A stretch of DNA of 49,407 bases. Origin: a virus. Where the stretch lies: positions 1 to 49,407 of IMG/VR virus record IMGVR_UViG_3300031578_000060. The stretch is one strand, 5' to 3'. A program made the translations under genes and the position numbers. Below, in pieces: positions 1 to 48,885 of this stretch. The notes below the pieces were generated by a model. That model saw nothing but the letters and a program-made list of their open reading frames with translations, was not told the origin of the DNA and searched no databases. Within the stretch, counting starts at the first letter, position 1, and the number at the start of each line of letters is the position of its first letter.

Positions 1-1496
1 GTATCGGACAGACTGTCCGACATCGCAGAAAGCAGCCCCCGTCGATAGCTATTGTACGCTCCGGAAATCTCATCCAGCAGCGGGTTGCGGACCTCTGCGC
101 GCGGAGCGTCCCCCATCGGGGGCTCGGCCGAGATCATGATGATGATCCTCTTTCGCAACACGGGCCCAAACATACACCGTGTGGAGACGAATGGGCGAAG
201 TAGCTGCTGGAACGCGTCAACAGGCACACCCAGAGAGGGGCAAGCACCCATCTCAGTGTTGGGAGCGAAGACCTCTCCCCGTGTGTCGTATCGATCTGCG
301 AGCCGCGGTTCCCCCGACCGCACCAAGATGATGCGCTGGAACTCATGGGGCTTGAGCACGATGCCCATGCGCGCCACGGTCCCCAGGATGTCTCCCAGGT
401 CCGCCGAGACCGTGCTGCGGGGCTGTGCCATCTGATTGAGGACACCCGCTGGGAGGTCCGGCTCTGCACGCTCCAGGAGAGGGACAGCCCTCCCAGCAGC
501 GAGGTCCGGGGGAAGCTCCTTGATGATGTCCGCGATCTTCTCGTCCGCGGTCTTCTGCGCTGCGGTCTTCGGGGGCTCCTGCAGCATGGAGAGCAGCTCT
601 TCCTCGGGGGAGAGTGCACTCGCCGTCTTCTGAAGCGAGGCCTCCGTGTAGCCCAGCTCCTCCGCTCGGTCTGCAGAGGGCTCTGCCAGAGAGTCCGGCC
701 GCACGAAGATGAACATCTTCTTGCCCGAGGAGAGCAGGGCCATGACCTTGGCAGTCTTGTCCGCGCCGATGAGCACGTACGAGATGTCGAAGAACCGGGG
801 GTGCGGGTTCCAGACGAAGATGATGCGCCCGTCGGGCAGGATCATGTTCGGCCGGAACCGCGGGTCCAGCCGGTTCATGTGCTCGCAGTAGTCCTTCCGC
901 GTCTTGGCGCGGTGCCCACAGATGGAGCACACGTCGTACTTGACGCGGCAGCCCATCGATACGGGCAGGAACTCACCGGCACGCAGCTTCTCGATGATCT
1001 CCCAGCCACCGCCCGCCTGGCACAGCCCGTGGTCCAGCTCCTGCACCAGCTCGACTCGCTTCATCCGGTCGTGCCAGACGGCGAGGACCACGTTCCCGTA
1101 CACCGGGTGGTTGTAGGGGGCGTAGGGCTTGTTCTTGTGGTGCCGGAAGGCGTTGGCACCGTAGAAGGTCGTGTACCCGTAGGGCGCTGTTGCAGCCAGG
1201 GCGCGACGAGCTTCCACATCCCAGGGCGGGATGTTCCTCCACCCCGGGGGCTCGTGCTTCAGTGCATCGATGCTGAACCCGTCAGCGTTGATGTTGGGGC
1301 CCCAGATCTCCGTAGCCCCCAGTGCGTTGACCAGTGCGTAGGTCTTGTCCTCGCGGGGCTTGAGGCGGGCGATGAACTGCTGCACCTCATCGTGCAGGGG
1401 CGAGGCCGTCTTGATGAGGTCGGGCTCCCCGGGCGTGATGAGCCTGGAGTGGACGCCGCTCTCGTCCTCCCCGTTGTAGTGAAGCAGCTTGATCAT
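1..1496 (-). CDS. Putative prohead (capsid maturation) protease with zinc-finger insert; 3' end beyond window
   Basis: The frame starts at ATG 1496 and stays open to base 1, so at least 498 residues are encoded and the C-terminus is missing. Residues 125-250 resemble the HK97/U35-type prohead protease core: a YNHP motif (His130), a YGNVVLAVW strand, ELD, then GEFLPVSMGCRV (Ser180) and FFDISYVLIGADKTAKV, which match the usual H...SxGF...EISLV pattern. His130 and Ser180 are the inferred catalytic pair. Between them and the last strand sits a CSIC...CEH cluster (Cys190, Cys193, Cys204, His206), a likely zinc insert. The region after residue 260 is Lys/Glu/Ala-rich with four KTA motifs and could be a scaffold-like or self-cleaved tail. 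It is the last visible gene of a minus-strand operon that starts at 3297. The protease call is from motif reading and not certain. Confidence 0.62.
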   Translation of the reverse strand, partial: MIKLLHYNGEDESGVHSRLITPGEPDLIKTASPLHDEVQQFIARLKPREDKTYALVNALGATEIWGPNINADGFSIDALKHEPPGWRNIPPWDVEARRALAATAPYGYTTFYGANAFRHHKNKPYAPYNHPVYGNVVLAVWHDRMKRVELVQELDHGLCQAGGGWEIIEKLRAGEFLPVSMGCRVKYDVCSICGHRAKTRKDYCEHMNRLDPRFRPNMILPDGRIIFVWNPHPRFFDISYVLIGADKTAKVMALLSSGKKMFIFVRPDSLAEPSADRAEELGYTEASLQKTASALSPEEELLSMLQEPPKTAAQKTADEKIADIIKELPPDLAAGRAVPLLERAEPDLPAGVLNQMAQPRSTVSADLGDILGTVARMGIVLKPHEFQRIILVRSGEPRLADRYDTRGEVFAPNTEMGACPSLGVPVDAFQQLLRPFVSTRCMFGPVLRKRIIIMISAEPPMGDAPRAEVRNPLLDEISGAYNSYRRGLLSAMSDSLSD

Positions 1497-3356: not shown

Positions 3357-3402
3357 CGGCAAAGCCCGCCGGAACACGGTACAAGAGGTCTGGAGGTGAG
3401 CC

Positions 3403-4158: not shown

Positions 4159-4187
4159 GCAAGAATCACGGGTACTTGCGGGATAAG
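4159..4187 (+). promoter_or_regulatory. Phage promoter candidate, GCAA-N19-GATAAG (copy 2)
   Basis: GCAA (4159-4162) is 19 bases from GATAAG (4182-4187). It lies 36 bases before ATG 4223 and in tandem with copy 1. The bases around GCAAG and CTTGCGG can also form a hairpin, but the exact match to the other copies favours a promoter. Confidence 0.6.
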
Positions 4188-4222
4188 AATGATGAACGGA
4201 CACACCAACAGGAGGCATCATC

Positions 4223-4704: not shown

Positions 4705-6489
4705 CTACGGATTCTGCGCGTCCTGCTGGGGCACGAAGATGTCCGGCCGGGGGATGTGTCGCGTCGAGGCCAAGAAGCACAGCAGGGCCGAGTGGTACGA
4801 GTCGTCCGTGGTCTCCGCCGCGATCTTGTAGTCGTCCTGCCGGGTGCTCTCGTTGTACTCCGCGAAGATGTTGGTGAAGTCCGTGGCGTAGGGCTCCTTG
4901 AACTCACGCCACGATGGGAACCGGATCATTTGGCGCCGCTGCTCCTTCATCGCGTTGAAGAAGGCTGACATCACCGCGGTGCGATTCACCAGGTAGCGGT
5001 GCATCCCCGGCTCCCAGCGCCAGAGCTCACGCGGCTGGCTATACTGCCACTTCGTGATCCGCACCGGTCCGAAGGTCTTGATCAGCTCCGCATTGGGGTG
5101 CAGGCCACCACCGAAGTCGGTGGCCACATGTTCCACGTTCCAGGTCCGGATCAGTCTCTTGATCAGGTCGAGCTGGATGTCCGGCTCCGACTCCCGACCC
5201 TCGAAGCGGTGGATGTAGAAGATGCTGAACCGGGCATCTCCAGGGAAGTAGGCTCCGAGGGACACCACGGTGAAGCTGGAGCTGCTACCGCCCTGCCAGT
5301 CGATCCCCATGTAGATGCGGCCCGAGCCACCGAAGGACTTCCTCATGGCGGACAGACTGTCCGGGTGCATGGACAGCCGGTCATCGCACAGCTCGCGCAG
5401 CTGCGTTCGAGTGATGGGTCGCGTCCCAGAGTCGTAGCTCATCCCCAGCACTTCATTGAAGAAGCGCACGCGGGGGTAGAACTTCTGCTTCTGGAGGATG
5501 TCGTTCCAGCCGATCCAGGGCACCATCAGCTGTGGGATGCGGAAGCCCTCGAAGGGCTCGGGGAGGTCCGGCGCAGGATTCAGTGCGGCCCACTGCGCCA
5601 TCGGGTGCTGAGGATCGATCCGCTTGCCACACTTGTCACAGATGAGCCCGTGAGCCCCGATGTTGCCCTCCCCGAGGATGTTCCAGTGCCACGTGCCTGG
5701 GCTCTTCGGAAGGCCGTGGTGCTCGCAGGGGACGACCCACTCGTTCTGCGTGGAGTAGTAGACCCAGTAGTGCTCGATGGGGTTGTCCATCGACTTGGGT
5801 GTGCCCGAGTACACGAAGAAGCGCCACGGGGAGTGGGAGGCTGTCTCCTCGATGACAGGGATGTTGTTCAGCAGGATGTCCTGCAGCTCATCGATGCACA
5901 CCAGGTCGGAGCTGACCCCGCGGGTACGGTCTGCGTTGTGGTAGGCGTAGCGCAGTCGGATCTGACTGTGGTTGATGAACTGCTTGAGGTGGACGTTGTC
6001 CGACATCTTCGTCGTGGTCCACGAGGACAGGATCGGGGACAGGCTGATGGGGTCGGCCAGCCTGTCCCTGCTGAACTGGTTGGTCTGGGTGTGCGTGGGG
6101 GAGACATAGAGGCTCTTGAATCCGGTGCTCAGGCAGGAGAGCGACAGTGTCCTGTTGCCAAGCAGCGTCGACTTCTCGACCTGACGTCCGCACTTGAGGA
6201 GAACTCTGTTGTATCCCGTGTCATAAGGCCTACGGAGATACCTGCGATCAGGATCGAAGACGAACGGGATGATCTGGTTGCGCTTCTGGTCCACGACCTT
6301 GATGGCGTACTCTGTGAAGTGCGACGGGCGCGCCCGAACCAGGTTCTCCTCGAGGGTACGCTGGACCGAATTGACGTCATCTTCATCCACGTCATCTTCG
6401 ACATCCTCGATGTCCCACTCCGGGTCCAGGTCTGGGTTGTAGTCACTTCTCCAGGACTCGAGAGGGGTCGTCTGAACGCTACTGAGCAC
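4705..6489 (-). CDS. terL: Terminase large subunit (packaging ATPase and nuclease)
   Basis: This is the motor that pumps DNA into the prohead and cuts the concatemer. The GTG start at 6489 has GGAGGT five bases upstream. ATPase motifs in order: Walker A GRQVEKST (101-108), Walker B LVCIDE (196-201) and the coupling motif SGT (228-230). A Cys/His cluster at 255-287 (CEHHG and CDKC) looks like a zinc ribbon inserted between ATPase and nuclease. The RNase H-like nuclease has Asp397 (YMGIDW), Asp458 (VATDFGGG) and Asp562/563 (TDDSYH), the expected acidic triad. The length of 594 residues is normal. It stands alone on the minus strand, bounded by convergent and divergent plus-strand genes. No separate small terminase lies next to it. 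Confidence 0.95.
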   Translation of the reverse strand: MLSSVQTTPLESWRSDYNPDLDPEWDIEDVEDDVDEDDVNSVQRTLEENLVRARPSHFTEYAIKVVDQKRNQIIPFVFDPDRRYLRRPYDTGYNRVLLKCGRQVEKSTLLGNRTLSLSCLSTGFKSLYVSPTHTQTNQFSRDRLADPISLSPILSSWTTTKMSDNVHLKQFINHSQIRLRYAYHNADRTRGVSSDLVCIDELQDILLNNIPVIEETASHSPWRFFVYSGTPKSMDNPIEHYWVYYSTQNEWVVPCEHHGLPKSPGTWHWNILGEGNIGAHGLICDKCGKRIDPQHPMAQWAALNPAPDLPEPFEGFRIPQLMVPWIGWNDILQKQKFYPRVRFFNEVLGMSYDSGTRPITRTQLRELCDDRLSMHPDSLSAMRKSFGGSGRIYMGIDWQGGSSSSFTVVSLGAYFPGDARFSIFYIHRFEGRESEPDIQLDLIKRLIRTWNVEHVATDFGGGLHPNAELIKTFGPVRITKWQYSQPRELWRWEPGMHRYLVNRTAVMSAFFNAMKEQRRQMIRFPSWREFKEPYATDFTNIFAEYNESTRQDDYKIAAETTDDSYHSALLCFLASTRHIPRPDIFVPQQDAQNP

Positions 6490-7446: not shown

Positions 7447-7843
7447 CGGGTGGGTGGAGGCGCTCCCTCCTACCCCACTCCTGTCCCAGCGGCTGCGCTG
7501 GGTGGACTCCATGTGCCGGTCCATCCAGCGCAGCTGTGGGAAGGTGTCGGGCTACCACATCTACTTCGATGCCAACGATGCCCTTCTGATGCGCATTGGG
7601 ATCACCTTCAACGTGTCCCTCGAGAAGGGGTCGGCACGGCACCTGCAGCACATCATCCAGGGGTGGTCTTCCATCAACGATGCACACGCACGGCGCGTGA
7701 CACTGGGATCTCACGGCTGTGTGGCGGAGATCTTCATCAAGTACAAAGGAGGTGGAGAGTGCGACGTCACACCCTGGGACCGACGGCCGGTTCCGAGGAC
7801 ACGCCACGGGCTGGGCATCAAGCGGAAGCGGCGGAGCCGGTGA
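7424..7843 (+). CDS. Unknown basic protein, 139 aa
   Basis: The frame opens at GTG 7424, overlapping the ParB-like gene by 23 bases. A later ATG at 7511 would give 110 residues, and the choice is uncertain. The stop overlaps the RNase HII start as GTGA, so the two are translationally coupled. Residues 45-70 alternate hydrophobic and polar residues like beta strands, and the last 20 residues are very basic (RHGLGIKRKRRSR), which suggests nucleic-acid binding. No family was recognised. Confidence 0.72.
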   Translation: MKLKTPTDGWVEALPPTPLLSQRLRWVDSMCRSIQRSCGKVSGYHIYFDANDALLMRIGITFNVSLEKGSARHLQHIIQGWSSINDAHARRVTLGSHGCVAEIFIKYKGGGECDVTPWDRRPVPRTRHGLGIKRKRRSR

Positions 7844-8454
7844 GGATCGCCGGTGTCGACGAGGTGGGACTTGGGCCCCTTGCGGGCCCCATCGTCGCCG
7901 TCGCCGCGCTCTACGACGACCTGGAGTGCCCCTTCCCCGAGCTCATCAACCCCAAGGGCCCAAGGACACGCCCGTACCTGGACAGCAAGAAGCTCACGGA
8001 GAAGAAGCGAGAGGAGATCTACGACCGCCTCATCGACGGGGCTGTCAGCGTGGGGCTGGGGCACGCCTGGCCCGAGGAGGTCGATGAGCACGGTGCTGGC
8101 CTGGCGCACCGGTGGGCCCTCCGTCGTGCCATCGAGGACCTGCAGGTGACCCCCGAGCTGGTACGCATCGACGGCAAGGCGTTCAAGCTGCGCAACCTGC
8201 CCTACCCACAGACTGCGCGCAACCACGGAGACTTGATGTGGTGGCAGGTCTCGGCCGCCTCCATCATTGCCAAGGTCTGGCGGGACCGCATCATGCAGGA
8301 CTACGCGGTGCAGTACCCGGACTACAGCTTCCAGACCAACAAGGGCTACGGCTCCCCGTACCACCTGGACCAGCTCCGGAAGCTGGGGCCCTGCCCGATC
8401 CACCGTCGCTCCTACCTCACACGTATCCCCATGCCACAGGGGGTGGGTCGCTGA
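7840..8454 (+). CDS. rnhB: Ribonuclease HII
   Basis: This endonuclease cuts RNA in RNA-DNA hybrids, removing primers or misincorporated ribonucleotides. The GTG at 7840 overlaps the previous stop (GTGA), and translation from it gives the family's usual N-terminus, AGVDEVGLGPLAGP. Catalytic acids are Asp7 and Glu8, Asp111 (VRIDGKAF) and Asp149 (AKVWRDR). DSKKL at 48-52 is a further family signature, as is the GYGSPYH stretch near the C-terminus. The length of 204 residues is typical. With the family A polymerase at 40771 it could process Okazaki primers. Confidence 0.93.
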   Translation: MRIAGVDEVGLGPLAGPIVAVAALYDDLECPFPELINPKGPRTRPYLDSKKLTEKKREEIYDRLIDGAVSVGLGHAWPEEVDEHGAGLAHRWALRRAIEDLQVTPELVRIDGKAFKLRNLPYPQTARNHGDLMWWQVSAASIIAKVWRDRIMQDYAVQYPDYSFQTNKGYGSPYHLDQLRKLGPCPIHRRSYLTRIPMPQGVGR

Positions 8455-8672
8455 TGGTCATGGACCTCCGTGACCTGTTCGACAGCCTCGCGCCGTCTCT
8501 CCAAGAGACCTTGAGGCTGGAGCGCCTGGTCCGGCGAGGCACAGCAACCCTCGAGCAGAAGCGCCACTTCCTCGAGGGGGTGCTGGCGCACTGGCCCTCG
8601 GTCAGCCCCGCGCGTCAGTACCCCGAGCTGTGGAAGGAGATCATGCAAGACGAGCGGACCATTCCGGGATAA
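8454..8672 (+). CDS. Small acidic protein, 72 aa; paralogue of the next gene
   Basis: ATG 8454 overlaps the RNase HII stop (TGATG); a second ATG at 8460 is also possible. GGGGGTGG precedes it. The protein is fully helical in appearance. Its core (RRGTATLEQKRHFLEG, then HWPSV and YPELWKEI) aligns end to end with the product of 8695-8895, so the two arose by tandem duplication. No function is recognised. The gene's stop lies inside the GATAAG box of the promoter candidate that drives its copy. Confidence 0.78.
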   Translation: MVMDLRDLFDSLAPSLQETLRLERLVRRGTATLEQKRHFLEGVLAHWPSVSPARQYPELWKEIMQDERTIPG

Positions 8673-8673
8673 G
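8645..8673 (+). promoter_or_regulatory. Phage promoter candidate, GCAA-N19-GATAAG (copy 3)
   Basis: GCAA (8645-8648) and GATAAG (8668-8673) are 19 bases apart, 22 bases before ATG 8695. It lets the second paralogue be transcribed independently of the ParB-like/RNase HII run. Confidence 0.6.
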
Positions 8674-8694
8674 GGTTGTAGAGGAGGACACACG

Positions 8695-9901: not shown

Positions 9902-9930
9902 GCAAGAAGGAGGGTCACATGGGTGATAAG
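9902..9930 (+). promoter_or_regulatory. Phage promoter candidate, GCAA-N19-GATAAG (copy 4)
   Basis: GCAA (9902-9905) and GATAAG (9925-9930) have the same 19-base spacing as the other copies. A transcript starting here would begin after ATG 9919, so it argues for ATG 9952 as the start of the small gene downstream. Confidence 0.58.
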
Positions 9931-9951
9931 AGGGGTAGAGAGGAGGACACT

Positions 9952-20515: not shown

Positions 20516-23500
20516 CTAGTACCCAACCTTGAACTCGGTGTCTCCGGGATGCTTCCCGAACTCCACACCGTAGGCCACTCCGGGGATGGGGTGCATCCCG
20601 TGGATGTCACTCTTCCACCCCTTCAGAGCCGCGTCCACGACGGTATCCTTGAGGTGGTTGTACTGCATGCGCGCCATCCAGTCCGTCTGCATGTCCAGCG
20701 GAGTCTGGTTCACCCCCCGCAGAATCGGCGTCCAGATGGCGGGCTTGCTGCGCCCCTTGTTCTTGGCCACCATGGCCGAGACAGAGACGATGTCGTTGGG
20801 CAGCAGGTCCTTGTCACCTCCGGCGTCCGTCACCCTCCCCAGGTTCGTGATGGATCGGATGACGGTCTCGACGTTGCGCCGCTGGACAGGACCTGCATCC
20901 TCGTAGGCACGGTAGACCTCGTCCGTGAGGTAGTTGCGCACCGTGTTGATGTTGGTCAGCGGCAGCAGCTGGTGCGGGTTGATCGGACCACCCGAGAGGC
21001 GCTCGCCTCGCTTCACCTTCGTGCCACGACGCAGCTTCAGGTCCGGATTGACCAGCTGCTCTGGCACGTAGTGCTTCCTGTCGCCCACCCACACGTCGAG
21101 TCCACCCGCGTCTCGATTCTTCTCCACCCGGCTGATGGTACCTGTCTGCTCCGCCAGCGTAGCCGCGTTGGCGAGGTTGGCCCGCATCTTCAGCAGCTGC
21201 TCCACACGGGTGAAGCGGTCCGTGATCTTGCCACTCTTGGAGGCGGCCACACCGCCCTCGTGGAAGGCCTTCATGGACAGCTGAGTGGCGGGCTCACCCA
21301 GAGCCTGGCCGGCCTGGATTCCGATGTTGGTCCCGGGCTCCAGGAGCTTGCCGTCGGGCATCAGCCCGTAGTCCCGAGCGTAGAGTCCGTGGGGGGCCAC
21401 GCTCTTGAGGGGGCTGCGGACCTGAACCTTGTTGACGCCAGAGTTGCGCAGCCGCGTGATCATCCGGGGGTCCAGCGCCGTGTTGCGGGGAAGGACGTCG
21501 CCCCCCTTGAGGGTGACGGGGCGCGCCAGGAAGCGGTTCATTGCCTCCCGGTCATCCACGGCCATGGAGATCCCATCGTCCGCATCATCCGGAGCATCCC
21601 CCTCCACGATGAGCTGATTCATCACCGAGTTCACGATGTCCTTCGTCAGCGCGCCCGGCTTCTGGACCTCCTTCGTCTTCTGGATCATGCCCTTGCGTGC
21701 GCCGTGCATGGCCGTGAAGTAGCTCGCAGAGTCCAGGCCCTCAGCGTAGCTCCGCGTCACGGGGACAGGAACGATGCGCTCGGCCGCGTCCCGCATCAGC
21801 ATGGGTGCGATGAGGATCTGCCGCAGCTGATCCCAGTTGCCTCGCGCCCCCGAGTCCACCAGCTCGAGCGCCCGGTTGGACTGCCGCGCCAGGTGGGGCC
21901 GGATGATCGTGTTGAGCCTGTCCGTGGCCTTGCTGTAGAGGCCCACGATCTGCGCGTCCTTCTGCTCCTGGTTGAGGTCAGGGCGCTTCCGGATGCGGTC
22001 GGCCTCCCGCTCTGTACCACCCAGCACGCGTTGCCGCAGCTCCTTCTGCGCCTGGAAGTCGTCGAGGGACACCGAGAAGCCGGATTCGTAGGTGTAGTTG
22101 TTGCCCAGGTCCTTCAGCGCGTTGACCGTCGTACCGAACGCGTTGGGGTGCTCCTGCGCAAGGCGGGAGAGGATGCCCTTGGTGGCCTTGCTGTCCATCT
22201 GGAAGCCGCGACCATGCAGGAGCTGCGCATCCCCACGCAGGGGCTCGGGCAGCGCCTTGTCGATCAGGAGCCGCCCCAGCGTGGTCTCCTTCCCGCCCAC
22301 GGTGATGACGTCGTCCATGTCCACGTGCAGGCGGGCTGCCTTGCGCGCAGCCTCTCCGGCGGAGTCGAACCGATGGGAGGTCTTGCGGCCCCACTTGGTC
22401 AGCCGGTACAGGCCCAGCTGGGCCTCGTGCCCCGGGGCGTACATGACGTTGCCGGTGGTCGGGGAGAAGAGGTTGTTCGACGGATACATCTTGCGCGCCT
22501 CTTCCACTGCGTCCTTGGTCAGTGGAACAAAGGCGGACATGGCGTCCCCATCGAAGTCTGCGTTGTACCCCGAGGTCACCAGCGGGTGGATGCGGATGGC
22601 CTTGCCGTCCACCAGCCGCGGGTTGAAGGCCATGATGCCGAACTTGTGCAGCACCGGATCACGCTTGAGCAAGATGGGGCGCTCCTTCATCACCTGCTCG
22701 AGCGCCGTGCGCGCCACGTCCGCGTTCTTCCTCAAGAGGTGCTGCGCCTCACGAGGATCATAGCCTTGCTCGACCCGCATCTTCCTCACGACGAAGGGCT
22801 TGTAGACCTCCTTGGCCAGCTTGTAGGGGATGCCCACCTCATCGATGGACATGGCGGGCTCGGGGATGATGGTGGACCGCATCGACAGATCCTGCCGACG
22901 ACTGGTCAGGTGATCCTGGAAGAACGAGTTCTTCGGCTGTGGCACACCCACCATGGTCTCCATCACCCCTCGATGATGTCGGCCGTTGAGGGTGCCCCCC
23001 GTCATGGTCAGGGCTCGCAGTGCATCGTAGGTGGAGGCCTCATGAGCGACGCGCCGGGCCTTGCCCAACCCAGGGTCGAACTCCTTGAGCTGGTTGTTCA
23101 GCACACCGAGGTTCATGTAGAGGCCGTTGACGTCGTCCTCGTTGAGCTTGCCGTTGTCCAGCACAGAGACCGGCCGCATCGCAGGGGGCAGAACGGGCAC
23201 GGCCTTCATCATGTAGGCCGACTCGGGCGTCATGTTGTTCGCTGAGAGTGCCTCGAGGTAGCGGATCTTCTTGCGTGCGTCCGAGAGCTTGGCAGCACGG
23301 AGTGTGGGGACCTGCTGGCGCAGGCTCTCGAGCTCCCCCGCCACATCCACACGACTGAGCGCATCCTGGATGGCCTGCACCCCAGTCTTCCCGTTGAGCT
23401 CCATCGCACCCGTCAGCACCTCCTGGTACTGCTTGTTGGTCAAGCCGGCGAAGGTCTGAATGGCCTTCTCGAAGACCGGGTTGGGCATCGCAGTGGCCAG

Positions 23501-26500
23501 CTCAATGTGGGACCAGTGCGTCCCATCGATGCCGCCCGTGATGTGCGGGTCGAACAGCCCACCCTTCTCGGGCTTGAGATCCTTGCCCTGGAGCCGCAGG
23601 CCAGGGTCCTTCAGCTCCCCGTTGGACATCTTCCGGACGTCCGCGTCCAGCAGGGGGATCAGATTGATGGAGTTGCCCTGCTTCTGCGGGTTCACCCCCA
23701 TCACGCGCATGTAGCCCAGGAACTTGTTGTAGGCGAACGAGGGGGTGGGTGGCGGTAGCTCCTCCCCCGCCTGTAGCGCGGTCCACAGCTGGTCGTTCCG
23801 CTGGCTCTTGTAGGAGGCCATCTCCCGGATGTTGGCCGTGGCCCCATGGGCCAGGAGCGCGTACAGACCGAGAGCATCCAGGGCCTGGGCACCATGTGGG
23901 CCACCACCCTTGGGTGTCTGATTGACGCTGTAGGGCATGCCGGCGCCACCGGAGCGCGCGTGCATCTTCTTCTGCACCTGGTGCTTGAGCTTGAACATGT
24001 ACTGGTTGCCCGTCAGGATCTCTCCCAGTGGCTTCCCAGTCGTCGGGTCCGTGAGCACCTCGGTGTCCGACACCCCGTTCTTCTTCAGCTCCTGCTGCAG
24101 CTCCTGGGTGTAGTCCCGGTCCAGGCCACCGAAGTTGTCGACGACGTACCGCTTCCCCCGCTTCTCGGCCAGCTTGCCCGCCGCGGTCTCCAACACCTGA
24201 CCCAGGTTGATGCGGCCCGGGACACCCGCGGGATTGAGCAGAACCTCGACCGGCTTGTCCTCGGCCTGGGGCATCTCGTGGTCCGGCAGCACCGCCGTGA
24301 TGACCCCCTTGTTGCCGTGGCGTCCGACCAGCTTGTCCCCGATGGTGGCGGGCTCCTCGGTGGCAACGTGCACGCTGATGCTCTTGCCGTGCTTGACGAC
24401 GCGCACCACGCGACCGCGGGTGTCCTTGTCCCAGACGACAGGCTTGTCCGTGTAGTCCTGCACCATGCTCTTATGGAGACGCTCCCGCATCCGATTCTCT
24501 GGAGTGGGCTTCGACTTGCGGAGCATGCCGATGAGGACATCCCCCTCATCGACGGTCTCTCCCTCCCGGATCACGCCGCTCTCATCCAGCTTGTTGAGGG
24601 TGTCCCGCGAGTACTTGTCAGGTGTGGCGTAGGCGATGAACCTCTTCTTGTCGAGGAGGGACCCCTTCTCCAGGACGTCGCTCTTGCGGTGCATGTGCTG
24701 CGAGGTCAGCTTCTCCGCAGCCGTCTCGGAGATGACGATGCCGTCCTCGAAGTTGTAGCCCTTGAACGGGAGGTAGGCGACCCGGAAGTTCCGCCCGAGC
24801 GCCAGCTCACCATTCCTCGTGAAGTTGGTGTCGGCGATCACCTGTCCACGCGACACGTCGTCACCTGGCTTCACCAGAGGGGTGGAGTGCAGGACCGAGG
24901 AGGCTTCGTTCAGTGGGAAGTGATCATAGAGCTGAACCTCATGACTCCGGCCCTTGCCGTCCTTGATGACCACCCCCTGTGGACGCACGGCAGTGACCTT
25001 GCCCGCAACCGGAGCGCTGTGGGAGTTGAACTTCCCCAGGATGTCCTCGAAGGTGGCAGCCGTCTCCGTCTTGGACTGGACGAGGGGGGCTTCGCGGCCC
25101 ACCAAGGCCACCGCCTGCTCCTGCTGTCGAGAGGCGGTCATCGCCCGGTTGCCCTGGTTGTTCTGCAGGAACGGTATGAGGTTGGCCGACATGCCGAACA
25201 GGCCCTTGGCCGAACGCATGACGTAGTCCACCTCGCTGAAGGGCACCTTGTTGACGTCCCCACCGACGCTGCTGACGGTCACCTCATCCGCGATGGGCTT
25301 GGGCTTCCCGCCGACCCACTTGACCTGGTCCGGGAAGGCCACCGTCGAGTTGAACGCCTTGTGTGCGTCGATGGACTCCAGCTTTCCCGTCCGGACGTTG
25401 TAGGCCTTGATGGTGATGTTGGTCCCCTTCTTCTCAACACCCAGGGGGAGCTGCAGGGTGATGCCGGTCTTGGCTCCTTCCGGTGTATGAACGGGGTCCA
25501 GGAATCCAACGTGGGTGGGGTCGATGAGGCGCACCTCATCCATGACGCGGTGCGCGCTGCCGATCCCGCCCTCCCCCATGACCGTGGTCTTGGTGTGCCC
25601 TGCGATGAACTCGAGCGGATTGATCTGCTCGGGCCGCTCGGACAGGGTCTCCGCTCCCGTGAAGAAGGTCCGGAGGGGCTTGTCGAACAGATCGGGTGTG
25701 ATGATCTCGCGGAGGGTTTCCTTGTTGTCCACGTTGTTGTTGAGCTTGTACTGCAGCTCTCGGGACCGGCGCTTCATCCGGTCCGCGACGAAGTCCTCTG
25801 CGGAGAGCACGTCCTTGAAGAAGAGCTGCTCTCGGTTGTCCCCCTCGTCCTCCCCCCGGGACATCTTCATCAGGCGCTCGGCGGAGGCCAGCAGTGCCTC
25901 TCCGGAGACGACGTCGTACTTCTTCCCCAGCGTCATCTTGGTGCTGTCGGGACGCAGCTGCGTGCTCCCCAGCGCGTCTCGAACGTACTTCTCTGCCGTG
26001 TCCACGTCCGGAGCAACCTTGCCCGTCCCCGACTTGTAGAAAGCTCGCAGGGCTGCGTCCGAGTTCTCCTTCTTGCCTTCGGTCAGCGCAGCCCGACCGA
26101 GCCGCTTCTCGATGGTGTCGTCGTCGACACCCAGAGCCTTGAGCAGGGGGTACAGAGGTGGGTTGGAGGTTCCATACCGGACCTTGAACTTGAGGTTCTT
26201 GGGGTCGAACCGGAGCCGGAAGCCGAGGCCCTTCTCAGCGTTCCACTGAGACTCGATCTCCCCCTTGTCACTGATGCGGTGGTAGACCCCCGACTTCAGT
26301 CGGAACTGGTTCCCGATCTGATACTCGGAGCCGTTGACGATGTACGAGTAGCGTCGGGTGACCTTGGGTAGGTTGGCCACCCGCATGACCTTGTGGTCCT
26401 TGACCTTCCCCGTGGCCTTGTCCACGAGGACGGCGTCCATCATGACGGGGACAGTCCAGGAACGCCCCTTGAGCCGGGCATCCTGCTGGGACTGGATGTC

Positions 26501-26644
26501 ATCGATGTCCTTCGTGTCGTCGACCCACACGCGGCGAACCTCGATGCGGTTCTTGCTGCCCTCGTATGGAAAGACGGCGCCGATGGCCTCGCTGACACTG
26601 TCTTTGAGGGCGCCAAACGAGCCCTCTGGGTTCAGCTGTGCCAT
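20516..26644 (-). CDS. Single-chain RNA polymerase: fused beta and beta-prime subunits, 2042 aa
   Basis: ATG 26644 follows AGGTGA. Residues 1 to about 965 match beta: DPVHTPEG (about 382-390), LIPFLQNNQGNRA (about 489-501), GYNFEDG (629-635), GDKLVGRHGNKGV (769-781) and KLKHQVQKKMHARS (about 885-898). Residues from about 1000 match beta-prime: GGLFDP, HWSHIEL (1043-1049), the metal-binding NADFDGD (1361-1367, Asp1363/1365/1367), the bridge helix from GARGNWDQLRQ (about 1599), the trigger loop from HGARKG (1647) and GEPATQLSMKAFHEGG (from 1783). Bacterial beta plus beta-prime total about 2750 residues, so this version is compact: the beta-prime zinc-binding part between GLFDP and HIEL is absent. 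No alpha, omega or sigma gene is seen in the window. It is the first gene of a minus-strand operon that includes the spike, so it may be packaged in the virion. Confidence 0.96.
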   Translation of the reverse strand: MAQLNPEGSFGALKDSVSEAIGAVFPYEGSKNRIEVRRVWVDDTKDIDDIQSQQDARLKGRSWTVPVMMDAVLVDKATGKVKDHKVMRVANLPKVTRRYSYIVNGSEYQIGNQFRLKSGVYHRISDKGEIESQWNAEKGLGFRLRFDPKNLKFKVRYGTSNPPLYPLLKALGVDDDTIEKRLGRAALTEGKKENSDAALRAFYKSGTGKVAPDVDTAEKYVRDALGSTQLRPDSTKMTLGKKYDVVSGEALLASAERLMKMSRGEDEGDNREQLFFKDVLSAEDFVADRMKRRSRELQYKLNNNVDNKETLREIITPDLFDKPLRTFFTGAETLSERPEQINPLEFIAGHTKTTVMGEGGIGSAHRVMDEVRLIDPTHVGFLDPVHTPEGAKTGITLQLPLGVEKKGTNITIKAYNVRTGKLESIDAHKAFNSTVAFPDQVKWVGGKPKPIADEVTVSSVGGDVNKVPFSEVDYVMRSAKGLFGMSANLIPFLQNNQGNRAMTASRQQEQAVALVGREAPLVQSKTETAATFEDILGKFNSHSAPVAGKVTAVRPQGVVIKDGKGRSHEVQLYDHFPLNEASSVLHSTPLVKPGDDVSRGQVIADTNFTRNGELALGRNFRVAYLPFKGYNFEDGIVISETAAEKLTSQHMHRKSDVLEKGSLLDKKRFIAYATPDKYSRDTLNKLDESGVIREGETVDEGDVLIGMLRKSKPTPENRMRERLHKSMVQDYTDKPVVWDKDTRGRVVRVVKHGKSISVHVATEEPATIGDKLVGRHGNKGVITAVLPDHEMPQAEDKPVEVLLNPAGVPGRINLGQVLETAAGKLAEKRGKRYVVDNFGGLDRDYTQELQQELKKNGVSDTEVLTDPTTGKPLGEILTGNQYMFKLKHQVQKKMHARSGGAGMPYSVNQTPKGGGPHGAQALDALGLYALLAHGATANIREMASYKSQRNDQLWTALQAGEELPPPTPSFAYNKFLGYMRVMGVNPQKQGNSINLIPLLDADVRKMSNGELKDPGLRLQGKDLKPEKGGLFDPHITGGIDGTHWSHIELATAMPNPVFEKAIQTFAGLTNKQYQEVLTGAMELNGKTGVQAIQDALSRVDVAGELESLRQQVPTLRAAKLSDARKKIRYLEALSANNMTPESAYMMKAVPVLPPAMRPVSVLDNGKLNEDDVNGLYMNLGVLNNQLKEFDPGLGKARRVAHEASTYDALRALTMTGGTLNGRHHRGVMETMVGVPQPKNSFFQDHLTSRRQDLSMRSTIIPEPAMSIDEVGIPYKLAKEVYKPFVVRKMRVEQGYDPREAQHLLRKNADVARTALEQVMKERPILLKRDPVLHKFGIMAFNPRLVDGKAIRIHPLVTSGYNADFDGDAMSAFVPLTKDAVEEARKMYPSNNLFSPTTGNVMYAPGHEAQLGLYRLTKWGRKTSHRFDSAGEAARKAARLHVDMDDVITVGGKETTLGRLLIDKALPEPLRGDAQLLHGRGFQMDSKATKGILSRLAQEHPNAFGTTVNALKDLGNNYTYESGFSVSLDDFQAQKELRQRVLGGTEREADRIRKRPDLNQEQKDAQIVGLYSKATDRLNTIIRPHLARQSNRALELVDSGARGNWDQLRQILIAPMLMRDAAERIVPVPVTRSYAEGLDSASYFTAMHGARKGMIQKTKEVQKPGALTKDIVNSVMNQLIVEGDAPDDADDGISMAVDDREAMNRFLARPVTLKGGDVLPRNTALDPRMITRLRNSGVNKVQVRSPLKSVAPHGLYARDYGLMPDGKLLEPGTNIGIQAGQALGEPATQLSMKAFHEGGVAASKSGKITDRFTRVEQLLKMRANLANAATLAEQTGTISRVEKNRDAGGLDVWVGDRKHYVPEQLVNPDLKLRRGTKVKRGERLSGGPINPHQLLPLTNINTVRNYLTDEVYRAYEDAGPVQRRNVETVIRSITNLGRVTDAGGDKDLLPNDIVSVSAMVAKNKGRSKPAIWTPILRGVNQTPLDMQTDWMARMQYNHLKDTVVDAALKGWKSDIHGMHPIPGVAYGVEFGKHPGDTEFKVGY

Positions 26645-26668: not shown

Positions 26669-26697
26669 AGGCTACCCCGCAAGGGTTGGACTGGCAA
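26669..26697 (-). promoter_or_regulatory. Weak sigma70-like promoter candidate before the RNA polymerase operon
   Basis: On the minus strand TTGCCA (26697-26692) and TAGCCT (26674-26669) are 17 bases apart, 25 bases before ATG 26644. The match is modest. It overlaps plus-strand promoter copy 5, so the two may interfere. Confidence 0.35.
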
Positions 26698-26707
26698 CTG
26701 TCATAAG
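26679..26707 (+). promoter_or_regulatory. Phage promoter candidate, GCAA-N19-CATAAG (copy 5)
   Basis: GCAA (26679-26682) and CATAAG (26702-26707) are 19 bases apart. The second box CTGTCATAAGG is identical to copy 1, and CCGCAA also matches copy 1. It lies 20 bases before ATG 26728. Confidence 0.62.
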
Positions 26708-26727
26708 GGTAGTGAAGGAGGCAACCA

Positions 26728-27858: not shown

Positions 27859-29949
27859 CTATACCAGGGCTTCCCCGATGCCGCGCCGTGGCGGCTTCTG
27901 CTCGGGGAGAGGCTGCTGCATCGGATTGAGCGTGCTGCGACGTCCCCCATCGCCTTCCGCGAGCAACTGCACCACCAGGCGGTAGAGCTCTGGGCTGCTC
28001 ATCTTCAGCCGCTGCATGGACTGCTGCATCTCGTGTGGGCTCTCTTGCTCGAGCTGGCGCATGGCAGCGGCCACACGCTGGGCCACGGCACGGATGTCCA
28101 TCCCACCGAGGCGCCCCGCCGCCATGGGCGACTGCACCTGAGACTCGAAGCTCTGCTGCGCGTTCTCCGGGTAGACCGTGGCGTTGTCGGGGACACCGGG
28201 GGCGATCTCCTCCCCCTGCATCGGGCCGCCGGCGGGGCCCTGTTCCATCCCGGGCTGGCCGCCCTCCGCTCCGGGCTGTCCGCCACCCGCCATGCCGGGC
28301 TGCGCGCCCTCCATGCCTGGCTGCCCCTCGCCGCCAGGTGCAGGTAGCTGCCCCGCAGGTGCAGGCGGCATGCCCATCGCGCTCTGGAGCTTCTGGGACT
28401 GGATCTCGTAGCGGATCATGACCAGGTTGGATTCGCCCTGAGCAGCAGCCTGCGCCACCATGAGGTCCCGGTTGGACTGGATCTGCTTGGCCAGCTCGTC
28501 CTTCTTGCGCTTCTCCTCCACCGCCAGCTCCTCACCCAGCTCTCGGAGGAAGGTGGTGTCCGAGATCTTCATGGCCTGGTTGGCCTGGAAGTAGATCATC
28601 AGCCGCTGCAGGTCGTCGGCCATGCGGAAGCGCCGGAACCGGATGCCCACCGTGGGCCACCCCAGGAACTCACAGACGCGCCCCATGATGAAGTCCCGGA
28701 CCATCCGGAGCTGGTCGATGCGGTAGCCGATGAACTGGTTCTCCAGCATCCGCATGGACACGTTGGAGCCGGTGTACTGCAGCCCCCCGAAGATGAACTC
28801 GAGGGGGACGTTCATGCCCGCGACCACCTGCTCGGACCAGACGCGCAGCTCCTGGTGCAGGATCATCGCACGGCCGTTGCCCCCAATCATCTCGTGGCCC
28901 AGTGGGACGGGCATGATGGGCACGTAGTTGGGGTCCTGACGCCAGCGCGCCAGCTCCTCCTGCACATCATCGCGCCACTGCTGCAGGTTGATCATCGTCG
29001 CGGGGTCCGAGGTGGAGCTTCCCGCAGCCGGGAACAGTACGCGCAGCGGGACGATGTGCTCCTGCGCGATCATCTCCTGCCCCTTGCGGAGGATCTGCAG
29101 GTAGAACAGATCCTTCAGCACGGGCAGGACCAGGGGCATCCCCCAGCCCTGATCCTTCTGCGCGATGATGGGGCGCTTGAGGTGGAAGATGTTCCCATCG
29201 GAGAAGGTGACGGCCTTCCTCTTCCGCACCCCCTCGATGAACAGGTCGGGGACCTTCTCGATGACCGACCTCTTGCCGATGGTGATGCTGTTCCGCAGCT
29301 TCTGTGGGAGGTCGTAGTAGTAGACGGGATCCGTAACGCCGTCGTTGTCATCGATCTCGATGCGCTCTGGATCCCAGCGGATGAGCCGGATGCCGCCCGG
29401 GCTCTTGATCGTGCGGTCGTGCACGCGAGCGGGGTGGCGGTCTCCACACTTCGGGCAGGTCAGGTAGTACTTGAGGTCCACGAAGCGGTAGTGGTCCCGC
29501 AGCTCCTTGATGGGCTTCTCGAAGCCACACTTGTGGCACTGGAGGTGCTTGACGAAGGGGAAGCTGACCGTGATGAAGGCGTTGCCGTAGTTGTAGTAGT
29601 CGAGGCCCACCTCGATCTGGAACTTGCGGATCTGGAGCTGGTCCTCAAAGAGGCTCTTGTATCGGGTGCGCACGGACTCCTCGTCCGTGTCGTAGATGAT
29701 CTCGGTGACGGGATACTCCGCCAGCTTGTAGACCACGGCGTTGATCAGGGGGTTGGTGAAGAAGAAGTAGCGGCACCACCGGAGCATCTGCTTGAGGCGC
29801 GCCGGGAAGTACGTCTGTGCCGCGTCGAAGAACGGGTTGGGGTAGCGAACCCCCTGTCGAAGAGGGCCCTGACCCAGGTCGACGGGCCTGTGCGAGAACC
29901 GAACAGGGCTGCCACCGGAGGTGATCCCGCTGAAGCCAAGGCCTGACAT
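27859..29949 (-). CDS. Portal protein
   Basis: The portal is the dodecameric ring at the head vertex through which DNA is packed and ejected. ATG 29949 immediately follows the upstream stop, with GGGAG before it. The long N-terminal part has the mixed fold of large phage portals: FFFTNPLINAVVYKLAEYPVTEI, GLDYYNYGNAFI, the strand-rich RLIRWDPERIEI, and the stem/crown helices after GMNVPLEFIFGGLQYTGSN. A zinc ribbon is inserted at CHKC (138-141) and CPKC (165-168). Residues 540-610 are a Gly/Pro/Gln-rich low-complexity repeat of GQPGME units, and the C-terminus is helical. It is the last gene of the operon starting at 32766. At 696 residues it is long for a portal but acceptable. Confidence 0.88.
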   Translation of the reverse strand: MSGLGFSGITSGGSPVRFSHRPVDLGQGPLRQGVRYPNPFFDAAQTYFPARLKQMLRWCRYFFFTNPLINAVVYKLAEYPVTEIIYDTDEESVRTRYKSLFEDQLQIRKFQIEVGLDYYNYGNAFITVSFPFVKHLQCHKCGFEKPIKELRDHYRFVDLKYYLTCPKCGDRHPARVHDRTIKSPGGIRLIRWDPERIEIDDNDGVTDPVYYYDLPQKLRNSITIGKRSVIEKVPDLFIEGVRKRKAVTFSDGNIFHLKRPIIAQKDQGWGMPLVLPVLKDLFYLQILRKGQEMIAQEHIVPLRVLFPAAGSSTSDPATMINLQQWRDDVQEELARWRQDPNYVPIMPVPLGHEMIGGNGRAMILHQELRVWSEQVVAGMNVPLEFIFGGLQYTGSNVSMRMLENQFIGYRIDQLRMVRDFIMGRVCEFLGWPTVGIRFRRFRMADDLQRLMIYFQANQAMKISDTTFLRELGEELAVEEKRKKDELAKQIQSNRDLMVAQAAAQGESNLVMIRYEIQSQKLQSAMGMPPAPAGQLPAPGGEGQPGMEGAQPGMAGGGQPGAEGGQPGMEQGPAGGPMQGEEIAPGVPDNATVYPENAQQSFESQVQSPMAAGRLGGMDIRAVAQRVAAAMRQLEQESPHEMQQSMQRLKMSSPELYRLVVQLLAEGDGGRRSTLNPMQQPLPEQKPPRRGIGEALV

Positions 29950-32835: not shown

Positions 32836-32856
32836 GCGAAACGACCAGCGGAAAGC

Positions 32857-32865
32857 TGGCATAAG
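32857..32865 (+). promoter_or_regulatory. Possible degenerate phage promoter (TGGCATAAG)
   Basis: CATAAG at 32860-32865 has CGAA, not GCAA, at the expected 19-base spacing (32837-32840), so it matches only in part. It lies 42 bases before ATG 32908, the first gene of the long replication operon, and overlaps the divergent portal-operon promoter region. Confidence 0.4.
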
Positions 32866-32907
32866 AACAGCAAGATAGTAGCAGCTATTACCTGCTGGAG
32901 GGCAGAC

Positions 32908-48338: not shown

Positions 48339-48885
48339 GCCGGCGCGCCTGCTGGCGATCCAGTACCCCACCCTGCCGCCTTCGGCCAACCACATCTACT
48401 ACAACCGGCCCGGGGGCGGACGCGGCAAGACCGCCGAAGCCCAGGCCTGGGAGAACCGGTTCATCGCCGCGGTGAGCCAGCATCATCTCTTCACCATCCG
48501 GTCGATCCAGGACCACGCAGACCTCGGAGCCGTGTTCGGCTTCGACATCACGCTGCTGATGACACCCAAGGAGCTCCTCAACCAGGGGTGGCTCTCTCGG
48601 TACAAGAAGGACACCTGGATTGGGAAGATCGGAACCCCCGCTCGGCGCCTGAAGCTGGCGGGGCAAAGGAAGGCAGAAACTCGATACAAGAAGATCGATG
48701 TTACCAACCGATTCAAACTCGTAGAGGACGCCATGGCAGCAGCACTCGGCATCGATGACTCCAACACCTTCGTCGTCGGTGGGAAGAAGATGGTCTTCTC
48801 CGACCAGCCGGGTGTGTTCGTCACTGTCTCGATAGACGACCCGCGCGCCTTCGGCGTCCCCGAGGGATTCCTGGGGCCACCATGA
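48280..48885 (+). CDS. RusA-like Holliday-junction resolvase
   Basis: The frame starts at GTG 48280; an ATG at 48301 would remove seven residues, and the true start is uncertain. The N-terminal PPSANHIYY motif is that of RusA (PPSxNxxY). The catalytic core is KKIDVTNRFKLVEDAMAA (Asp140, Asn143, Lys146, Asp150) followed by GIDDSNTFV, as in the RusA Asp-Asn-Lys-Asp pattern. It cleaves four-way junctions from recombination or replication forks before packaging. The length, 201 residues, is longer than RusA (about 120) because of an extended N-terminus and middle insertion. Confidence 0.85.
   Translation: MVVSSAPMAPWVVVSAPWIEPARLLAIQYPTLPPSANHIYYNRPGGGRGKTAEAQAWENRFIAAVSQHHLFTIRSIQDHADLGAVFGFDITLLMTPKELLNQGWLSRYKKDTWIGKIGTPARRLKLAGQRKAETRYKKIDVTNRFKLVEDAMAAALGIDDSNTFVVGGKKMVFSDQPGVFVTVSIDDPRAFGVPEGFLGPP

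Follow-up and report, generated by a model that had tools for sequence, protein, structure and literature searches.

Bacterial-type beta and beta-prime subunits of RNA polymerase encoded by phages, as well as polymerases carried in virions, are already known. The multi-subunit RNAP-encoding Caudovirales (mReC; Weinheimer and Aylward 2020, PMC7481178) possess bacteria-related beta and beta-prime subunits with the NADxDGD motif which branch apart from those of cells. In the text of that paper fusion is mentioned for crAssphage only (PMC7481178). Some contigs with the fused gene described here may nevertheless be part of the mReC set. The jumbo-phage polymerases of phiKZ and AR9, for which virion and non-virion forms are known, are likewise phage-encoded with a bacterial-type active site, but their subunits are distributed over several genes and are very divergent (PMC7598289, PMC7824862). 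The single-chain polymerases crAss gp66 and YonO carry both barrels in one polypeptide, the crAss enzyme having been reported as a beta/beta-prime fusion, and are hardly recognisable by sequence (PMC7481178). The Arashvirus-like phages Arash, D69, D148 and D181 share with the locus described here a homologous polymerase (30-33% identity), portal and protease (in Arash also the terminase), a beta subunit fused to beta-prime and some sites of a promoter-like motif, and with the lineage of that locus a gp10-type sigma factor; however, their chain stops after the NADFDGD region and the C-terminal part of beta-prime is separate. Fusions of rpoB and rpoC are known from the bacteria Helicobacter and Wolbachia, where they are cellular.

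The locus lies in a 49,407-nucleotide stretch of DNA (IMG/VR virus record IMGVR_UViG_3300031578_000060), which was analysed as a whole and is called the window below. A preliminary description, made from the letters alone, had noticed a 2042-codon frame at 20516-26644 with landmarks of both large polymerase subunits. This frame is real. It constitutes gene 23, is located on the minus strand (the strand had been left unstated) and encodes 2042 aa from an ATG start to a stop with no internal stop codon, so that, as claimed, neither a frameshift nor an internal start is needed. The phage origin that had been assumed agrees with the large terminase, portal-like and phage replication genes of the record. 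The features of the gene are the following:

20516..26644, minus strand: single-chain beta-beta-prime RNA polymerase gene (gene 23), 2042 aa (frame, Pfam, phmmer, relatives)
23690..26644, minus strand: beta part, about residues 1-985 (alignment with E. coli rpoB; the model of residues 1-1000 matches bacterial beta)
20519..23647, minus strand: beta-prime part, about residues 1000-2042, without an extended linker (phmmer; alignment)
24740..24760, minus strand: GYNFEDG, residues 629-635, beta barrel (motif position; alignment)
24305..24325, minus strand: GRHGNKG, residues 774-780, region of the catalytic lysine of the beta barrel (motif position; alignment)
22544..22564, minus strand: NADFDGD, residues 1361-1367, metal-binding aspartates of beta-prime and site of intein insertion in relatives (motif; alignment; intein matches)
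21605..21853, minus strand: bridge helix plus the beginning of the trigger loop, residues 1598-1680 (alignment)
21278..21298, minus strand: GEPATQL, residues 1783-1789, trigger-loop region of beta-prime (motif; alignment)

Every motif named in the preliminary description was found, and in natural order. PVHTPEG starts at residue 384, GYNFEDG at 629, GRHGNKG at 774, KPEKGGLF at 1024, NADFDGD at 1361, SGARGN of the bridge helix at 1598, HGARKG at 1647 and GEPATQL at 1783. The Pfam domains also followed the natural order (Rpb2_3, Rpb2_6 (9e-65), Rpb1_1, Rpb1_2 (1e-29), Rpb1_3, Rpb1_4 and Rpb1_5). Comparison of the catalytic residues revealed identity with E. coli at 11 of 11 positions (E813, D814, K1065, K1073 and R1106 in beta; R425, D460, D462, D464, R780 and H936 in beta-prime), and the same 11 residues were present in all 14 other phage rows of the alignment, namely 12 single-chain relatives, Arash and D69. 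The top phmmer match of the protein in the PDB was bacterial beta-prime (E 1.6e-112). A match to bacterial subunits at 1e-112 sets the enzyme apart from crAss gp66 and YonO and bears out the earlier claim that it is closer to cellular RNA polymerase than other single-chain phage enzymes. Its one-frame organisation, unlike the split enzymes of phiKZ and AR9, was confirmed as well, and its sequence resembles cellular RNA polymerase far more than theirs does; the tblastn match to AR9 reached 23% identity over 14% of the query.

A search for related loci yielded 49 in IMG/VR, some of which may be near-copies of each other; in 49 of 49 the match fell within one frame, and about 39 span approximately the whole protein. 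Between the polymerase codons of the window and those of the relative L041, differences by codon position were 0.27, 0.21 and 0.41, the third position being highest. Because the uninterrupted frame recurs in the 49 loci and third codon positions differ most, a chance frame is excluded. An artefact, that is contamination with cellular rpoBC or an assembly joining separate genes, could be suspected since some matches in the phage collection are unannotated contigs resembling bacterial sequence; but the single-frame arrangement is identical in the 49 loci, the surrounding phage gene order is conserved and the polymerase sequence is separated from bacteria with full tree support. The 49 single-frame relatives together with the phage synteny rule contamination or a chimera out, and the chance of such an artefact is negligible. 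The fusion is a trait of the lineage and not a lone oddity. Judged by its sequence, the product of gene 23 is almost certainly a complete bacterial-type core RNA polymerase in one polypeptide, the activity of which is predicted.

The comparison with RpoB and RpoC and the structure prediction that had been proposed as a check were in agreement with this assignment. AlphaFold2 was run on two overlapping pieces with alignments from 28 single-chain proteins. The piece comprising residues 1-1000 (pLDDT 82, pTM 0.78) matched bacterial beta chains in a Foldseek search of the PDB (E 3e-72, TM by query 0.76, 1,095 columns), and residues 456-1655, which include both barrels (pLDDT 81, pTM 0.69), matched bacterial beta-prime chains over about 800 columns (E 1e-41). 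As far as separate predicted pieces can show, both folds are present, and the structural finding that the preliminary description had named as a refutation did not arise. The end of beta (FLGYMRVMGVNPQ) and the start of beta-prime (VRKMSNGELKDPG) lie within about 20 residues of each other. Since beta runs into beta-prime without an extended linker, both active-site barrels are on one chain. According to the alignment, nothing at the join corresponds to some 18 residues from the N-terminus of E. coli beta-prime. Throughout the lineage beta-prime is devoid of its N-terminal zinc-binding domain; most relatives retain a second zinc site, which the window and L041 have lost. The bacterial rpoB-rpoC fusions have the same order, beta and then beta-prime, whereas the window gene belongs to a virus, is without the N-terminal zinc domain and is not accompanied by an alpha gene. 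The alignment further showed a short beta flap without the stretch of the E. coli flap tip, and rifampicin-pocket residues that differ (H526G, S531T, R529K, D516E, Q513E and I572T, E. coli numbering), so that the enzyme is predicted to be naturally insensitive to rifampicin.

Contigs of the lineage reach 187 kb. Larger frames of approximately 2,500-2,960 aa contain insertions close to query positions 782, 811, 1367 and 1380, position 1367 being directly at the catalytic loop, and in the three examples tested the inserts were LAGLIDADG or intein domains. One Rpb2_6 match per record was obtained in 20 of 20 records, that is one polymerase each. Alpha was found in none of the 20 records searched (control positive in 13 of 14 cellular genomes), in line with the preliminary description, which had seen neither alpha nor sigma. 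Tblastn against 50,697 phage records retrieved no cultured phage possessing the whole protein as one chain; the nearest cultured relatives were the Vibrio phages D69, D148 and D181 and the Salmonella phage Arash (30-33% identity). In Arash and D69 the first gene encodes beta and the N-terminal part of beta-prime (about 1,525 aa), and the C-terminal part of beta-prime is a later separate gene. The terminase, portal, protease and polymerase of the window all have homologues in Arash, and these sequence similarities place the window phage among a lineage of large tailed phages related to Arash. When a collection of genome contigs was searched for a host, cellular relatives only were retrieved, with no prophage and no host.

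In the tree, whose cellular rows were all bacterial, the phage rows were separated from 8 bacterial rows by a branch with support 100. With support 100, too, the Arash pair was placed next to the main single-chain clade; the split-polymerase T4-capsid phages Carin-5 and YerA41 were on a long separate branch. A single-chain clade excluding Arash was rejected (AU p ~1e-62), the distant single-chain L044 falling outside; the joint clade including L044 had support of only about 71. The position of L044 outside the main clade means either that the split in Arash is derived or that L044 underwent a separate fusion. Because beta-prime is whole in cells and L044 lies outside the main clade plus Arash, we take the joining of beta to beta-prime to be old and the break in the Arash beta-prime to be a derived state, with an independent fusion in L044 as the alternative.

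The hallmarks of mReC, beta and beta-prime matches with NADxDGD, were found in the window as well, Pfam models being used here instead of COG models. However, the T4-like capsid reported for mReC is not found in the Arash-related single-chain lineage: the PF07068 major capsid was detected in 0 of 24 lineage records including the window (a fragment that may be without its capsid gene), and in 6 of 6 split-polymerase phages. This capsid test makes a simple filing as mReC less appropriate. No phage beta-beta-prime fusion of the window type was found in the open papers, to which the literature search was confined, nor was a prior description found there of a recognisably bacterial chain that unites the two complete subunits and is conserved throughout a lineage with its own sigma factor and promoter motif.

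The polymerase gene and the portal gene are neighbours on the structural (minus) strand, with four small plus-strand genes between them. The following structural genes were recognised:

27859..29949, minus strand: portal-like protein gene (gene 28); the portal adjoins the polymerase gene in Arash and D69 too (homology)
4705..6489, minus strand: large terminase gene (gene 7) (homology)
3..1496, minus strand: gene for a head maturation protease-like protein (gene 1), homologous to the gp222 region of Arash (homology)

The terminase corresponds to phrog_675; for mReC the terminase family is VOG01069. In published proteomics of Arash, gp206 (beta and N-terminal beta-prime) was the most-detected particle protein, with 3516 spectra and 128 unique peptides, and the virions also contained gp216 (C-terminal beta-prime; 1210 spectra) and the sigma factor gp10 (467 spectra, 24 peptides, 100% coverage), carry-over of abundant proteins being allowed by the authors as an alternative (PMC10585845). 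Spectra per residue amounted to 2.3, 2.0 and 2.0 for gp206, gp216 and gp10, respectively, versus 1.5 for the portal, which is a crude hint that the three are present in similar amounts in Arash virions. By analogy with Arash, whose enzyme is split and 33% identical and which is the source of the virion data, the single-chain polymerase is likely to be delivered in the virion. The polymerase could instead be made during infection for middle or late genes, early genes being read by host RNA polymerase. The proteomic data do come from a split-enzyme phage for which carry-over was allowed, and the T4-capsid split-polymerase phages keep their polymerase genes in replication modules, suggesting non-virion use there. 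However, the polymerase gene adjoins the portal gene on the structural strand in the window, Arash and D69, each genome has a single polymerase, and gp206 is the top virion protein of Arash and exceeds the portal in spectra per residue, so that a non-virion role appears unlikely.

A sigma factor was sought in the whole lineage. The Pfam sigma models gave barely any signal, but their weak matches to region 4 exposed a family of Arash gp10 homologues, the members of which match gp10 in phmmer at 1e-16 to 1e-27. A profile built from six members, all six of which have a Sigma70 region 3 match, detected the gp10-type sigma in 18 of 38 records, including 8 of the 9 fused or Arash-like records longer than 170 kb. 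It gave no match in the four T4-capsid phages, in the 49-kb window fragment, in the 74-kb contig of the closest relative and in the ninth of these long records. Hence, of the earlier statement that no alpha or sigma is visible, the alpha part stood, and the sigma part holds for the 49-kb fragment but not beyond it, because near-complete relatives encode a sigma factor. A second sigma-like gene of Arash, gp196, is unnamed in the main text of the Arash paper (PMC10585845). Genes 19, 20, 21, 30 and 31 of the window were considered as disguised sigma factors and rejected, their profiles giving no significant match to gp10 or gp196. On these homologies, the lineage has a divergent sigma factor of its own. 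Residues R271, R275, E295 and R297 of the beta-prime clamp helix, which contact sigma in E. coli, have changed equivalents in the aligned window polymerase, as has R278 (E. coli numbering), and these alterations would fit a sigma of the phage's own.

A promoter-like two-box motif, GCAAA-N15-GGNATAAGAA-N3-TRGA, recurs across the lineage. Among word pairs enriched in intergenic stretches of the near-complete relative G006, ATAA-N6-TGGA occurred at 18 sites versus approximately 2 expected. GGNATAA-N6-TGGA was found in 15 of 32 records including Arash and D69, with 1 match for the reversed pattern, and the aligned sites revealed a second box, CAA(A), which ends about 16 bases ahead of the GG. A matrix was trained on G006, G017 and Arash together with short segments from other relatives, the window being left out. 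In the window it found 7 sites; all 7 are on the plus strand, and the minus strand, which carries the structural genes and the polymerase, has none. The reversed control gave 0, and 60 Markov resamples gave a mean of 0.35 and a maximum of 2. Six of the seven sites are just upstream of plus-strand genes (5, 6, 12, 14, 24 and 32), and the seventh is weak and lies within gene 52. The six, all identified with the motif matrix, are:

3358..3395, plus strand: two-box site upstream of gene 5
4160..4197, plus strand: two-box site upstream of gene 6, top score
8646..8683, plus strand: two-box site upstream of gene 12
9903..9940, plus strand: two-box site ahead of what is probably the true start of gene 14
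26680..26717, plus strand: two-box site upstream of gene 24 and pointing away from the polymerase gene
32838..32875, plus strand: weaker two-box site upstream of gene 32, the first gene of the replication module

In the closest relative, G018, three sites only were found, all weak, which implies that the signal drifts or that part of the G018 genome is missing. The box layout is that of ordinary sigma-70-family promoters, and the -10 element of FliA-type sigma factors also holds GATAA. The motif might be recognised by host RNA polymerase carrying one of the host's own sigma factors, for instance of FliA type, the phage sigma serving another purpose and the polymerase being real. The ordinary layout and the weaker motif in some relatives would agree with this, but this motif recurs in phages infecting Salmonella and Vibrio and in others with high-GC hosts, beside the shared lineage sigma, and we regard reading by the host as rather improbable. 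That the polymerase, the lineage sigma and the two-box motif work as one set has, in our estimate, slightly better than an even chance.

The best explanation overall, and one that we consider reasonably probable, is a virion-delivered single-chain core used with the lineage sigma on early two-box promoters. The polymerase would be made late, probably together with the portal and other minus-strand structural proteins as for its Arash counterpart, and would probably enter the virion and be delivered along with the DNA. The delivered core would then join the divergent sigma of the gp10 family, and core and sigma would start transcription at the two-box motif ahead of the plus-strand early and replication genes, so that early phage transcription may have little or no need of host RNA polymerase. 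To our knowledge, the known virion polymerases (phiKZ, N4, crAss, P23-45) function without a sigma factor. Whether transcription is entirely self-contained, with a single-chain core packed together with its divergent sigma, a dedicated two-box promoter and neither alpha nor host core, appears evenly balanced.

Within one phage lineage the architecture of the polymerase is fluid: the subunits may be joined, beta-prime may be broken internally, or inteins may sit at the catalytic loop. A direct test could draw on components from the lineage itself, namely a core, a putative sigma, mapped candidate promoters and, in Arash, a relative in culture. If the proposed reading is true, the enzyme would be a simplified one-gene bacterial-type polymerase without alpha, handy for expression, structure determination and engineering, and would bear on the minimum parts needed by a sigma-dependent polymerase. 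These phages would then possess an unusual transcription system, in which the polymerase is carried inside the particle with its own sigma factor and promoter signals.

A divergent sigma-factor family was found to be common to the single-chain phages and the cultured Salmonella phage Arash, in which it is represented by gp10. Further members were L061, L069, L091, L094, L095 and positions 11892-12593 of L074, and the Pfam models for region 2 and region 4 detect this gp10-type family poorly. A two-box promoter-like motif was likewise present lineage-wide; its sites in the window were confined to the plus strand, and six of the seven were located immediately upstream of genes.

Two-box promoter-like sites in the window
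3358-3395, plus strand
4160-4197, plus strand
8646-8683, plus strand
9903-9940, plus strand
26680-26717, plus strand
32838-32875, plus strand
48663-48700, plus strand

The window also carries a phage ribonuclease HII gene (7840-8454; Pfam 2e-29), which is kept in relatives.

Alignment of the polymerases revealed that the second beta-prime zinc site is missing from the window protein and from that of its relative L041; its cysteines are retained in most relatives.

Lost second beta-prime zinc site
window 21278-21620, residues 1684, 1748, 1755 and 1758

The polymerase frames of eight related loci (L016, L025, L035, L037, L040, L048, L049 and L053) contained large inserts, positioned near residues 782, 811, 1367 and 1380 of the window polymerase, the one near 1367 falling at the catalytic motif NADFDGD. 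LAGLIDADG or intein domains were detected in all three inserts tested. In the Vibrio phages a homing endonuclease is annotated close to the polymerase genes (L004:5257-5856), and such an enzyme beside these genes is a possible route to the break within beta-prime.

Several unannotated "phage" records of the public collection (L100, L101 and similar) look like bacterial contamination, because their rpoB and rpoC are separate genes and cluster with bacteria. A distant single-chain polymerase (L044, L045 and L047; 28% identity, 2242-aa frame) fell outside the main clade of the tree, on a branch of its own that is long, and possibly represents a separate fusion event.
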